Below, piece after piece: positions 9,225-46,790 of a stretch of DNA of 58,366 nt. Origin of the DNA: an uncultured Oscillospiraceae bacterium (GTDB taxonomy: Bacteria; Bacillota; Clostridia; Oscillospirales; Oscillospiraceae); NCBI GenBank assembly GCA_905236305.1, contig CAJOPB010000233.1:1-58366 (forward strand), written 5' to 3'. Within the stretch, counting starts at the first letter, position 1. Every line of letters begins with the position of its first letter. The translations under genes and the position numbers were made by a program. The notes under the pieces are model-generated. The model had not been told where the DNA came from, made no database searches, and saw nothing but the letters and a program-made list of their open reading frames with translations.

Positions 9225-11138
9225 TCAAACCTCAATCTCAATGAACGCGGCTGTGCTCTCACCGCAGTGGGGACATACCCAGCCCTCCGGCAGGTCCTTG
9301 AAGGCTGTACCGGGCTTTACCTCGTTTTCCGGGTCGCCCACGGCGGGATCATATTCGTTGCCGCAGCCAAGGCAGACGCCCAGCTTCCTGGGCTGACGCG
9401 GCGGCTTGGGAACATTGCGCTTCATCTTGACCATGGGCGGTGCAGGCTGCTTTTCACCGGTGTCCAGCGCCCTGGTCAGCAGGGGCAGGATCACATTTAC
9501 GTCACCCACAATACCGTAGTCACAGTTTTTGAAGATTCTGGCATTGGCGTTGGTGTTAATGGCGACGATGGTGCTGGCATCCTTGATGCCCTTGAGATGC
9601 TGCAATGCGCCGGAGATACCGCAGGCGATGTAGAGATTGCCCTTGAACTTCTGGCCGGACATGCCCACATAGCGGTCCAGCGGCACATACTGCAGCGTCT
9701 CTGCCACCGGACGGGAGGAACCCACGGCGGCACCGGCGGCGCGCGCCAGATCCTCGATGAGCTTCATGTTCTCTTTTTCACCAATTCCCTTGCCGGCGCT
9801 GACCACCCGCTCGGCCTGGACGATGGGCGTGTCGATGGGAATTCCGACAGTGAAGTCATGGCCGTCCTTCTTCAGTGCGGCCACCACCGTGTTGACCATC
9901 TCCTCCGGATCTCCGCCCTTGAGAATCTGTTTTTTCCGGGGACCGGTCTCTCCGCCGGGGGCCGCCTTGGCCGCCGGGGCGGGCTCAGCCTTTCCTGCCT
10001 TGCCCAGAATGGAGGCCGCGATAACCACCTTCTGAATCTCGTTGGTGCCCTCATAGATCGAAGTAATCCGCGCGTCGCGGTAAAAGCGTTCGACGGGCAT
10101 GCCCTTGAGGAAGCCGGTGCCGCCGTGGATCTGGATCGCCTCATAGGTGACCTCCTGGGCGATGTCCGAGGCATACATCTTGGCCATGGCCGCCTCCATG
10201 CCGTAAGGAGCATGGGCCTGCTTCAGCTCCGCCGCACTATAGACCAGGAAGCGGGCGCAGCGCAGCTTGGTGGCCATGTCTGCCAGCTTGAAGGAGATGA
10301 CCTGCTGGGTGCAGATCGGACGGCCGAACTGGACGCGCTCCTTGGAGTATTCCACCGCTGCCTCATAGGCGCCCTGGGCGATACCCAGCGCTTGTGCCGC
10401 AATCCCGATGCGCCCGCCGTCCAGGGTGCCCATGGCAATCTTAAAGCCCTGGCCCTCCTTGCCCAGCAGGTTTTCCTTTGGCACCTTCACGTCATTGAAA
10501 TTGAGCTGGCAGGTGGCGGAGGAACGGATGCCCATTTTGTCATAATGCGGCTCAAAGGTGAAGCCCTCCCAGCCCTTTTCCACGATCAGGGCGGAGATAC
10601 CCCGGGTGCCGATGCCCGGCGTGGTGACAGCAAAGATCACATAGGTGTCGGCCTCGCCACCGTTGGTGATGAAGATCTTCTCGCCGTTGAGCAGATAATA
10701 GTCGCCCTTATCCTCCGCCACCGTCTCGGTGCCGCCGGCGTCGGAGCCCGCGTTGGGCTCAGTGAGGCCGAAGGCTCCGAGCTTTCTGCCGGAACAGAGG
10801 TCGGGCAGGTATTTTTTCTTTTGTTCTTCTGTGCCGTAAGCGGCAATGGGATAGGTGCCCAGGGAGGTGTGGGCCGAGAGGATAACCCCCACGCCGCCGT
10901 CCACCCGGGACAGCTCCTCCACCGCGATGGCATAGCTAAGCACGTCCAGCCCTGCGCCGCCATACTCTTTTTCATAGGGGAGACCCATCAGTCCCAGCTC
11001 ACCCATCTTATTGATGGCATCCCGGGGAAAGCAGTTCTCCTGATCCAGCATGAAAGCGATCGGCTTGACCTCCGATTCTGCAAAGGCACGCACCTTTGCC
11101 CGCAGTTCCTCATGGGCCTGTGTCGTCTGGAAATTCAT
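9225..11138 (-). CDS. Acyl-CoA dehydrogenase - ETF-alpha FAD domain - rubredoxin fusion
   Basis: Acd signatures ([48 protein letters not shown]); ETF-alpha domain II ([43 protein letters not shown]); C-term [19 protein letters not shown]. Confidence 0.93.
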
Positions 11139-11231: not shown

Positions 11232-11377
11232 TATGCGCAATAAAATCTTTTTCACGCCGCAAGTTCTTGTTTACTATTTACAGCATCAGAAGGAATTGTC
11301 ATACTGAAATCAAATAAAAAGCTTGGCAAGCTTTTTATAGAAGTTTCGTATGAGCTCGTATGATCAGAAAAAAATAC

Positions 11378-11419
11378 AGCACCGCCTGTCTGTCCCGCAA
11401 CGGGCAGACAGGCGGTGCT
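11378..11419 (-). terminator. Intrinsic terminator distal to guaB
   Basis: AGCACCGCCTGTCTG(T)CCCG hairpin; minus strand continues TGTATTTTTTTC. Confidence 0.75.
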
Positions 11420-11470
11420 CAGGATGCGCCTCTCCCATAAAAAGTTTCTACTTTTTATGGGAGAATAGTA

Positions 11471-12976
11471 TTACTCCTTCCCCACGGTGGCACGCAGCGT
11501 CACATCGTGATAGCCGCCTTCGAGAATGCTGGTGGAGGACACCACCGTCAGCCGCGCGTTTTCCTGCAGGTCGGGAATATTGGTGACACCGCAGTTGCAC
11601 ATGGTGGATTTGATCTTGTAGAGTGTTTTGGCAACATTGTCCTGGAGGCTTCCGGCATAGGAGACATAGGAGTCCACCCCCTCCTCAAAGGCCAGCACGC
11701 CCGCGCCGCCCAGGTCATAGCGCTGCCAGTTGCGGGCCCGGGCGGAGCCCTCTCCCCAGTACTCCTTCACATACTGACCGTTGATCATCAGCTTGGGCGT
11801 GGGAGACTCGTCAAAACGGGCAAAATAGCGCCCCAGCATGACAAAATCCGCGCCCATGGCCAGCGCCAGGGTGATATGGTGATCCTGCACTATGCCGCCG
11901 TCGGAGCAGATGGGGATATAAATTCCCGTCTCCCGGAAGTACGCATCCCGGGCAGCCGCAACCTCAATGACCGCAGTGGCCTGGCCCCGTCCGATGCCCT
12001 TGGTCTCCCGGGTGATGCAGATGGAGCCGCCGCCGATACCCACCTTGATAAAGTCTGCGCCGGCCTCTGCCAAAAAGCGGAAGCCCTCCCGGTCCACCAC
12101 GTTTCCGGCGCCGACCTTCACACTGTCCCCATAGTGTTCCCGCACATAGTCAATGGTGTTCTTCTGCCAGACCGAGTAACCCTCGGAGGAGTCAATGCAC
12201 AGCACGTCCGCGCCGGCCTCTACCAGGGCGGGCACCCGCTGGGCATAGTCCCGGGAGTTGATGCCGGCGCCCACCATATAGCGTTTTTTCTCATCCTGCA
12301 AGCTCAGGGGGTGCTCCTTGTGCTCTGAATAGTCCTTGCGAAAGACAAAGTAGAGCAGGTGGTCCTGCTCGTCCACAATGGGCAGGGCGTTGAGCTTGTG
12401 CTCCCATATGATGTCGTTGGCCTCCTTCAGTGTGGTATCCGCCGGAGCGGTAATCAGCTTGTCCCGGGGGGTCATGAAGTCCCGCACCAGCTCATCGCCT
12501 GTCATACGGGTCACCCGGTAATCCCGGCTGGTCACCATACCCAGCAGTTTTCCGCAGGGCGTGGCGTCCTCAGTGACTGCAACCGTGGAATAGCCGTTTT
12601 CCGCCTTCAGGGCCAGCACATCCCGGAGTGTGGCGTCGGGTGTGAGGTTGCAGGCACTGGGTACAAAACCGGCCTTGTGATTCTTCACCCGGCGGACCAT
12701 GGCGGCCTCCGACTCCACGGACTGGGACCCGTAGATAAAGGCGATGCCGCCCTCCTTGGCAAGGGCGACGGCCATGGTGTCGTTGGAGACAGACTGCATA
12801 ATGGCCGAGACCATCGGGATATTCAGCCACAGCGGGCAGTCCTCCTGCCCCCGGCGGTATTTCACCAGCGGCGTGCGCAGGGACACCCGATCGGGAATAC
12901 AGTCGGCGGAGGTATAGCCGGGGATCAGCAGATATTCGTTAAAGGTGCGGGAAGGTTCAGGGTAATAATAGGCCAT
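11471..12976 (-). CDS. guaB: Inosine-5'-monophosphate dehydrogenase
   Basis: CBS domains, catalytic loop [23 protein letters not shown], 501 aa. Confidence 0.95.
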
Positions 12977-42513: not shown

Positions 42514-45132
42514 TCAGCCATCCTTTACTACAATGGCGCTGTCCGCTACCCTGGTGCGGTGGCTGTTCTGGGCACTGCGGCGCAGCACATCCCCGATCTG
42601 GCCCATCACCCAGTCTACCTCATTGCCAAACTCTTTGGCATTGGTGCGCAGTATCCCGCTGCCCAGTGCGCTGAGGCGGATCAGGTTGTCACTGGTCACA
42701 ACCCGGACGGACTGGTTTTTTCCGATCTCGTGGAGCAGGCCCTGGATATACAGATCCGCGCTCTCGTTTTGTTTGGTATACACCACCCGCACCCCGTGAT
42801 AGTCCGTTTTCTCTCCGGGGTTGCCCTTCACCGCATAACCGTCATATACCAGCACCACCTCGCTGCCGGTGAAACCCCGATAGCTCACCAGAACCTCGGC
42901 AAGGCGCCGGCGCGCGGTGTCCAGGCTGTCCTCCGCCAGGGCCTTCAGCTCCTCCCAGGCAAAGATGACATTATAGCCGTCGATAACCAGCAGCTCCTTT
43001 TTCTCCCGCAGCACCACGGGCGCGGCGGCGGAGCGGTCGGCGACCGGTCTGGTATACATGGGGCGGCGAATGGGGCCGAATTCCCGCTCCATGATGGCCT
43101 CCAGCTCCCGCTCGTCGATGTTCAGGTTTCCCAGGCGCAGCCGCGGAGCCAGGGTGCTCCGATCCCGGCCCAGGCCCGTATCCAGATGCATATATTCATC
43201 CGCCCGGTCCCACTTTACCACAAACCCCGCGCCGTGGGCACAGAACACGCTGTCGGGACTGTTGTCCACATCCGCCTCCGGGTCATAGCCGAGCTCGGCC
43301 ACCACGGCGGCGGCATTGTGGCAGGGCTGATAGCCGGCAGTCACGCACGAAAGCCTTCCGCGGCCGCCGGTATAGGCAGCCACCTCGGTGACATAGTCCC
43401 GCATGGCCGCCACCGGGGCAGTCCCTGTGAGGACCGCGGTCTCCCCGTCGCCGGAGGTCTCGGTCTGAAATTCCCCGTGCATGGACCGCAGGTCCCCGAT
43501 GGCGCGGCCTGTCTGGGCAGCGGGCACCTCCAGACGAAAGGAATAACAGGGCTCCAGCAGCACGCTCTGCGCCTTCATCAGTCCCTGGCGCAGGGCTCTG
43601 TAGGTGGCCTGGCGAAAATCCCCACCCTCGGTGTGCTTCAGGTGGGCTCTTGCCGCGGTGAGGGTGATGCGCAAATCCGTAATGGGAGAGCCCGTCAGTA
43701 CCCCGAGATGGGTCTTCTCCGCAAGATGGGTGAGGATCAGGCGCTGCCAGTTGATGTCCAGGCTGTCCGGGGGACAGCTTGCCCGCAGCTGGATGCCCGC
43801 GCCCCGCTCCAGCGGCTCTAAGAGCAGATGCACCTCCGCGTAATGCCGCAGGGGCTCATAGTGACCGGCGCCCTCAACCGGGGCGGCAATGGTCTCCCGA
43901 TAAGTCACTCTGCCGGCGTCCACCCGGGTTTCCCAGTCAAAGCGCTCCCGGATCAGGCCCGTCAGGATCTCAATCTGGACTCTGCCCATGAGCTGCAGCT
44001 CGATCTGCCGCACCCGGGGATTCCACTCAAAGCGCAGCAGCGGTTCCTCCTCCTCCAGCTGCCGGAGCCGCGGCAAAGCCACCCGCGGGTCCAGCCCCGG
44101 AGGCAGGGTCAGCCGGTAAGTCAGCGCGGGGGAGAGCACCGGAGCAGGCGCATCGGCCTCCGTCCCCAGCCCCTGCCCGGCGTAGCTGCGGCTCAGTCCC
44201 AGCAGGATGCCCGTCTCCCCTGCGCACAGTGTCTCCGCCGCGGTCCATTTTGTGCCGTCGCAAACCCGCAGGCCCGTCAGCTTTTCCTCCATCCCGGTCC
44301 CGTCAGCGGCGGTATAGCGAAGGGTCTCCCGGGTTTTCAGGCTGCCGCCAGTGAGCCGCAGATGGGTCTGCCGGCCGCCCTGGGCGTCCCTGCTGATCTT
44401 AAATACCCGCGCCCCCAGCTCCGCCGGCCAGGTCCGGGGCAGAGTATAGCGGGCAAGGCCGTCGAGAAAGGCCCCGACACCCTCCCCCCGCAGCCCGGAG
44501 CCGAACCAGCATGGAAAGAGCTGGCGCCGGAGAATGAGCTCTGCCACCTCCGCATCCGTCACGCTGCCGGTCTGCAGATAGCGGTCCAAAAGCTTCTCGT
44601 CGCAGAGGGCAAGAGCCTCAGCCTCCGGAGCGCCGTCGGAAAAATCCATCACCCGCTCCTCCAGCTTTGCCTGCAGCTCCGAGAGAATATGCTGCTTCCG
44701 GGCAGCGTCCAGGTCCATTTTGGTGACAAACAGCAGCACCGGCTTGTGATAGCGCCGCAGAAGCTGCCAGAGGGTTTCTGTGTGGGCCTGAACCCCATCC
44801 GTGCCGCTGATGACCAGCACTGCCAGATCAATCACCGCCAGGGTACGCTCCATCTCCCCGGAAAAGTCCACATGGCCGGGGGTATCCAGCAGTGTCAGCT
44901 CCATATCCCGCCAGGAGAGACAGCCCTGGGCGGAGAATATGGTGATACCCCTGGCGCGTTCCAGCGCATGGGTATCCAGTGCCGTGTCCCCATGATCCAC
45001 TCTCCCGGGCTTTCTCAGCGTGCCGCTCTGATACAGCATCGCCTCCGCCAGCGTGGTCTTGCCCGCATCCACGTGGGCCAGCAGTCCCGCGCAGACACGT
45101 TTTTTTGTTTTTTTCTCCGGGCTGCCGTCCAT
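42514..45132 (-). CDS. TetM/EF-G-like translational GTPase with C-terminal NYN (YacP/Rae1-like) nuclease domain
   Basis: GTPase: LAHVDAGKTTLAEAML, RARGITIFSAQ, LLDTPGHVDF, VTKMDLD; C-term: LLVIDGYNVIFAWEELKALAEDSLDTARRRL..VVLVYDGYAVKGN..VVYTKQNESADLYIQ..VRVVTSDNLIRLSALGSGILRTNAKEF. Confidence 0.88.
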   Translation of the reverse strand: MDGSPEKKTKKRVCAGLLAHVDAGKTTLAEAMLYQSGTLRKPGRVDHGDTALDTHALERARGITIFSAQGCLSWRDMELTLLDTPGHVDFSGEMERTLAVIDLAVLVISGTDGVQAHTETLWQLLRRYHKPVLLFVTKMDLDAARKQHILSELQAKLEERVMDFSDGAPEAEALALCDEKLLDRYLQTGSVTDAEVAELILRRQLFPCWFGSGLRGEGVGAFLDGLARYTLPRTWPAELGARVFKISRDAQGGRQTHLRLTGGSLKTRETLRYTAADGTGMEEKLTGLRVCDGTKWTAAETLCAGETGILLGLSRSYAGQGLGTEADAPAPVLSPALTYRLTLPPGLDPRVALPRLRQLEEEEPLLRFEWNPRVRQIELQLMGRVQIEILTGLIRERFDWETRVDAGRVTYRETIAAPVEGAGHYEPLRHYAEVHLLLEPLERGAGIQLRASCPPDSLDINWQRLILTHLAEKTHLGVLTGSPITDLRITLTAARAHLKHTEGGDFRQATYRALRQGLMKAQSVLLEPCYSFRLEVPAAQTGRAIGDLRSMHGEFQTETSGDGETAVLTGTAPVAAMRDYVTEVAAYTGGRGRLSCVTAGYQPCHNAAAVVAELGYDPEADVDNSPDSVFCAHGAGFVVKWDRADEYMHLDTGLGRDRSTLAPRLRLGNLNIDERELEAIMEREFGPIRRPMYTRPVADRSAAAPVVLREKKELLVIDGYNVIFAWEELKALAEDSLDTARRRLAEVLVSYRGFTGSEVVLVYDGYAVKGNPGEKTDYHGVRVVYTKQNESADLYIQGLLHEIGKNQSVRVVTSDNLIRLSALGSGILRTNAKEFGNEVDWVMGQIGDVLRRSAQNSHRTRVADSAIVVKDG

Positions 45133-45406
45133 TTTTGTTCCTTCTTTTCCGTTATTTCCGCGATGCTGCTCCGCAATCGCCGCCTCGGGCAGGGACATAG
45201 CGATTTACTTTGTAAAAGTATATCATATTTTCCCCCATCCGTCGATTGGTTTTTCCTACGATTTTTCATGCAGAATTGCCATGTTTTCATTCGGCCTGGG
45301 GTGAAAATGTCAGAAAGCACGGTCCTAAATGGGTGCCGGCGCAAAAAAATTGAAAAAATCTCTTTCCCTTCGCCCCGGTTTATGCTACAATAAACTCTGT
45401 AATACT

Positions 45407-45553
45407 AGTCTTCATTAAAACGCCTGAAAAGCGTTTTATAGCGCCGCAGGCGCGTTGAAGACTGTATGAGACGTGTTTTGTGCCTTTCGGCACAAAACGG
45501 GCAACGCGCTTTGCGCGGTGCCTTTTCAATAAAAAGAAGCATTTTATTGAAAA
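45407..45553 (+). promoter_or_regulatory. Structured metK 5' leader (three-way junction plus three hairpins)
   Basis: Closing stem AGTCTTCA/TGAAGACT enclosing TAAAACGC/GCGTTTTA and GCGCC/GGCGC; then GTTTTGTGCC/GGCACAAAAC, GGCAACGCGC/GCGCGGTGCC, TTTTCAATAAAA/TTTTATTGAAAA. Confidence 0.65.
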
Positions 45554-45602
45554 ACAGTATAACACCACTGAGATATGCCGCGCAGAAGGAAGGTTTTTTG
45601 TT

Positions 45603-46790
<1,188 letters not shown>

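Follow-up and report, generated by a model that had tools for sequence, protein, structure and literature searches.

The window, a 58,366-nt stretch of DNA, is contig C233 of a 2.44-Mb host genome in 244 contigs that is judged 78% complete. It carries metK, which encodes S-adenosylmethionine synthetase, and a divergently transcribed neighbor (42514-45198, minus strand) that encodes an EF-G/TetM-like translational GTPase with a C-terminal fusion to a YacP-like NYN nuclease domain. The metK leader contains an extended −10 motif, a large palindrome, three further hairpins, and a ribosome-binding site (Table 1). The extended −10 is present in the sequence where the first-pass annotation placed it; a consensus −35 was searched for at a spacing of 16 to 18 nt from it and was not found. 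The coordinates that the annotation gave for an 8-bp closing stem around two hairpins, forming a three-way junction, were also right (45407-45414/45456-45463), and the stem is lengthened by ATAC/GTAT at 45402-45405/45464-45467. All three subsequent hairpins lie at the positions described, ahead of the ribosome-binding site.

Table 1. Features of the metK leader and a second copy of the leader element, in window coordinates
Feature	Position	Strand	Basis or remarks
Second, diverged copy of the element	11299-11473	+	Between two genes; different interior; flanks TCA/TTA
Extended −10 TGCTACAAT of presumed metK promoter	45383-45391	+	Sequence; leader alignment with G004; outside element
Target-site duplication, left copy, TAA	45400-45402	n/a	3 bp
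Left palindrome, three-way junction	45402-45467	+	Closing stem 45402-45414/45456-45467 enclosing hairpins 45416-45438 and 45441-45453
Element body (very probable MITE), 157 bp	45403-45559	+	Non-coding; dispersed in host genome
Left terminal inverted repeat TACTAGTCTTCATTAAAA	45403-45420	+	
Hairpin 3, 10 bp	45475-45498	+	RNA and DNA folds
Hairpin 4, 9 bp	45500-45522	+	RNA and DNA folds
Hairpin 5, 12 bp	45523-45553	+	Right terminal repeat paired with its inverted copy
Right terminal inverted repeat, TACTGTTTTTCAATAAAA on minus strand	45542-45559	−	
Target-site duplication, right copy, TAA	45560-45562	n/a	3 bp
Ribosome-binding site AGAAGGAAGG, short	45584-45593	+	Sequence; outside element
metK, S-adenosylmethionine synthetase, start ATG 45603	45603-46790	+	Pfam N, M, and C domains

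The leader is as densely structured as had been claimed: its RNA fold reaches −77 kcal/mol, compared with −55.1 ± 4.0 for shuffled sequences (z = −5.5; 0 of 200 shuffles equal), and the element folded as DNA gives z = −8.7. The two-hairpin form of the junction is given by the DNA fold and by a consensus of 19 copies, while the single-sequence RNA minimum pairs the junction interior differently. In the RNA fold, the metK ribosome-binding site lies in no strong stem. A terminator scan returned two weak stem-loops within hairpin 4, with stems of at most 5 bp and a short run of T; these were rejected as a terminator, and no convincing terminator was found in the leader. Rfam covariance models, SAM families included, gave no match to the leader, in agreement with the annotation, and no family reached its gathering score anywhere in the window. 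A relaxed-threshold Rfam scan produced chance-level matches only.

Searching the host genome with the leader returned 44 matches, nearly all of them within query bases 5 to 163 (window 45402-45560). Profile searches of regions taken from the host genome identified at least 84 places on 60 contigs, a lower bound in which copies and fragments are counted together. Copies occur in both orientations, and some are nested, with young copies inserted in or against old ones (L067, L079, and L081). Numerous contigs break off within a copy, as is usual where assembly runs into a repeat. The first-pass annotation had offered two readings of the leader, a new SAM- or methionine-responsive element or a domesticated palindromic repeat, and had named many intergenic copies away from metK as one observation that would refute a new regulatory RNA. 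Such copies are what the searches recovered, and the second reading was right as to origin, the leader being occupied by a dispersed transposable repeat.

The ends of the metK copy are imperfect 18-bp terminal inverted repeats, both of which fit the pattern TNATACTNNTCTTCNNTAAAA. Allowing up to three mismatches, this pattern occurs 163 times in the host genome, versus 13 times for a reversed-pattern control, and convincingly paired ends in the host fall into two size classes, hairpins of 48 to 57 bp and elements of about 140 to 170 bp. Nearly all well-defined element ends adjoin TNA, and the same N tends to occur on both sides. TNA flanks both ends of 50 elements; the two are identical in 41 of these, against 14.2 expected by permutation (0 of 20,000 permutations as high). 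Terminal inverted repeats, target duplications, and nested copies are standard signs of DDE-type transposition. The 157-bp element falls within the 50- to 1000-bp size range of MITEs, lacks a transposase gene, and has terminal inverted repeats, a target-site duplication, and multiple dispersed copies, which together place it among miniature elements of the MITE type. We conclude that the metK leader very probably owes its structure to a non-autonomous DNA transposon (MITE), one copy of which inserted where the metK message begins. On insertion, a TAA lying 8 nt past the metK −10 would have been duplicated, which is how a DDE transposase that acts in trans and targets TNA should leave its site; the class of transposase is one that we infer. 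Some observations sit less easily with a MITE. A simple MITE would not need so elaborate a conserved multi-hairpin layout, and duplications match less often among full copies in the host (7 of 13) than among those in relatives (27 of 28). The host also contains mini elements of 48 to 57 bp that consist of little beyond two back-to-back terminal repeats (L159, L158, L171, L140, L141, L146, L068, L144, and L178); seven of these nine have identical TNA duplications, and they may be the smallest form in which the family moves.

We compared the metK leader with those of relatives. In G004, a member of the same genus whose metK protein is 89% identical over the part present, the leader aligns over the promoter, ribosome-binding site, and start codon but has a single TAA and no element; this alignment is moderate, the empty site comes from one relative, and the exact junction is one that we infer from it. 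Of the 20 relatives' loci scanned, 8 have a SAM-I riboswitch immediately before metK, and G006, also of the same genus, has a sub-threshold SAM-I match in front of the gene. Neither the host genome nor G004 contains a SAM-I covariance-model match. Judging from these two genomes, SAM-I loss appears separate from the insertion of the element and was possibly earlier, and the lineage is a case of metK having lost SAM-I control. SAM-I (S-box, RF00162), which occupies the metK leader position in several relatives, resembles the leader studied here in being a folded 5′ leader with a multi-branch junction; its ligand core is absent here, however, and the structure consists of transposon palindromes. 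A new riboswitch that controls metK in response to SAM or methionine would agree with the position in the metK leader, the dense fold, the covariation between copies described below, and the lack of a detected SAM-I in the host genome. It is contradicted by the dispersal of the element, mostly in non-leader positions, by the target-site duplications, by the element-free G004 leader, by the lack of an Rfam match, and by covariation that is unlike that of RNA in its intolerance of wobble pairs. We therefore regard this part of the first-pass annotation as almost certainly wrong, and a SAM-sensing role of the leader is unsupported. As a separate observation, metK was not found in four of the seven genomes of the genus (G001, G002, G003, and G005) by protein search and the Pfam profile PF02773, including G001, listed as 100% complete, and G003, which is 94% complete. 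These genomes may come from SAM auxotrophs that take up the compound or may encode a divergent enzyme, or the gene may fall in assembly gaps.

Placement relative to genes was assessed with orientations from a codon-usage gene model, checked with Pfam on five window genes. An estimate of orientation from the longest open reading frame was discarded as unreliable, long antisense frames being common here. In 78 of 112 gene-facing flanks, the copy lies 3′ of the gene (P = 4e-5), while copies between divergent genes, as at metK, make up only 3 of the 36 with both neighbors called. Since placement is mostly on the 3′ side and rarely divergent, the element is not a class of leader. Such a 3′ bias would result if most insertions in promoters were lost.

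We asked what kind of pairing is maintained among the copies. Across genera, the layout of a closing stem around two hairpins with further hairpins is kept while the sequence changes, and an unpaired linker, ATGAGACG, is conserved between copies. In 19 diverse copies, 94.5% of cells pair, two-sided changes occur in 19 of 27 pairs, and the covariation score is 0.483, versus 0.184 in shuffles; by the usual covariation criterion, the element would pass as a functional RNA. The first-pass annotation had taken absence of covariation as a sign against a regulatory RNA. Covariation is in fact strong, but its type is that of a DNA palindrome. Two-sided pair changes outnumber one-sided (wobble) changes by 92 to 6 in the element, compared with 16 to 15 in SAM-I sequences from relatives (Fisher P = 5e-7, which is a guide only, since cells are not independent and the SAM-I control set is small). 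In folds that disallow G-U pairs, isolated mismatches on the plus strand comprise 18 G-T and 18 A-C; minus-strand folds, which view those mismatches from the opposite side, give 14 and 28 and so reveal a mild scatter that depends on folding. The equality of G-T and A-C mismatches indicates that the plus strand is not favored as RNA. Given this equality and the near absence of G-U intermediates, pairing is probably kept as DNA inverted repeats and not as RNA.

A mobile element whose transcribed RNA is functional, with structure selected as RNA in all copies, would be in keeping with the architecture shared across genera, the many compensatory changes, and the conserved linker. We consider it very improbable in view of the scarcity of G-U pairs, mismatches without strand asymmetry, and the lack of consistent placement relative to genes. 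If pairing is instead maintained at the DNA level, stem arms may be kept matched by a transposase reading the inverted repeats, by template switching during replication, or by both. In template switching, a single event rewrites one arm to match its partner, with an outcome that can resemble compensatory change (PMC8794818). That the entire multi-hairpin layout, three-way junction included, is conserved family-wide as folded DNA required for transposition despite sequence turnover, and that such an element took over leader function at metK in a lineage without its former SAM-I, we consider improbable. Searches for new RNAs should take these results into account: strong covariation is usually accepted as proof of a functional RNA, yet here it probably reflects pairing kept in DNA. 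The wobble test is cheap and could join riboswitch screens.

We searched for a transposase or parent element. Pairing of terminal repeats over regions taken from the host revealed no 1- to 3-kb element with good repeats at both ends, and no gene of the transposase families PF01609, PF13340, PF13586, or PF01797 was found in the host assembly, which is incomplete and breaks at repeats. One candidate partner, a transposase gene beside a copy in G017 (L129, 633-825), was rejected: the element there has its own TAA/TAA duplication and lies within a separate insertion sequence, 5′ of that gene. This copy, which has an internal duplication of the middle hairpins, separates the transposase gene of that other insertion sequence from a TATAAT-like −10, a placement much like that at metK. 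The TNA target suggests an IS5/IS1031-type transposase acting in trans. A TNA target duplication is reported for the IS1031 subgroup of the IS5 family and, at 3 bp, is common to IS1031 and this element, but the terminal repeat reported for ISLrh, GAACCTGTCTAGTATCT, is unlike that of this element (PMC12016507). No IS5-type transposase turned up in the host assembly, nor did the terminal repeats match a known IS1031 member; the assignment is therefore a suggestion, and we do not claim membership in IS5/IS1031.

Y1 transposition is not known to make target duplications. A palindromic element of the REP/IS200 type, which a Y1 (HUH) transposase mobilizes in single-stranded form, would share the subterminal hairpins and strong single-strand DNA fold seen here, and REP and IS200-IS605 sequences are likewise dispersed intergenic palindromes. 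This element differs in having true terminal inverted repeats with 3-bp target duplications, and the host assembly contains no Y1_Tnp gene; such an origin is accordingly most unlikely.

If the promoter is placed as it appears, metK transcripts would begin with a hairpin-rich 5′ untranslated region. Because the structure leaves out the ribosome-binding site and the scan yielded no convincing terminator, the effect on metK is likely passive, through leader length or altered stability or processing of the 5′ end, and not through ligand sensing. A MITE insertion since co-opted as a useful metK leader, acting on stability, RNase III processing, or start-site control, could be reconciled with a copy that is structurally intact, has a perfect duplication, and sits exactly between the −10 and the ribosome-binding site. 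By analogy, the RNAs of the MITEs ERIC and NEMIS have been reported or proposed to affect mRNA stability or processing (PMC2229807). However, a recent insertion would equally be intact, and there is no comparative sign of retention, the metK copy being known in one genome and other members of the genus lacking the element. We therefore think co-option unlikely and favor a MITE insertion with passive effects.

Recognizable relatives of the element were found in 20 of 251 genomes in a family-level sample; the other six genomes of the host genus contained none. A 25-base core pattern matched Oscillospiraceae, Butyricicoccus, and unclassified Clostridia MAGs, most often the goat-gut MAG RGIG2293; viral contigs gave no match to this pattern and plasmids none to the element. 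Bacterial MITEs with strong transcript folds include Correia/NEMIS, ERIC/IRU, and RUP (reviewed in PMC2229807 and PMC10969869). Like the element described here, these are non-autonomous, 100 to 200 bp long, intergenic, and high in copy number, with terminal inverted repeats, target-site duplications, and hairpin-rich transcripts. The present element differs in its sequence, its TNA (3-bp) instead of TA target, its five hairpins with a three-way junction, and its Oscillospiraceae hosts. A literature search found no relevant MITE or palindromic repeat described for Faecalibacterium or Oscillospiraceae, and the family is apparently undescribed. One riboswitch candidate is thus struck off, and a MITE family of gut Oscillospiraceae is described in its place; the element is of an ordinary kind, and its wobble-free covariation is the part worth remembering.

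The second copy in the window may be a chimera, since its interior is unrelated to that of other copies and contains a long GC-rich hairpin. Its end coincides exactly with the stop codon of a gene for IMP dehydrogenase (11471-12976, minus strand). Another gene of the window (9225-11138, minus strand) encodes a single 636-aa protein with acyl-CoA dehydrogenase, ETF-alpha FAD-binding, and rubredoxin domains.
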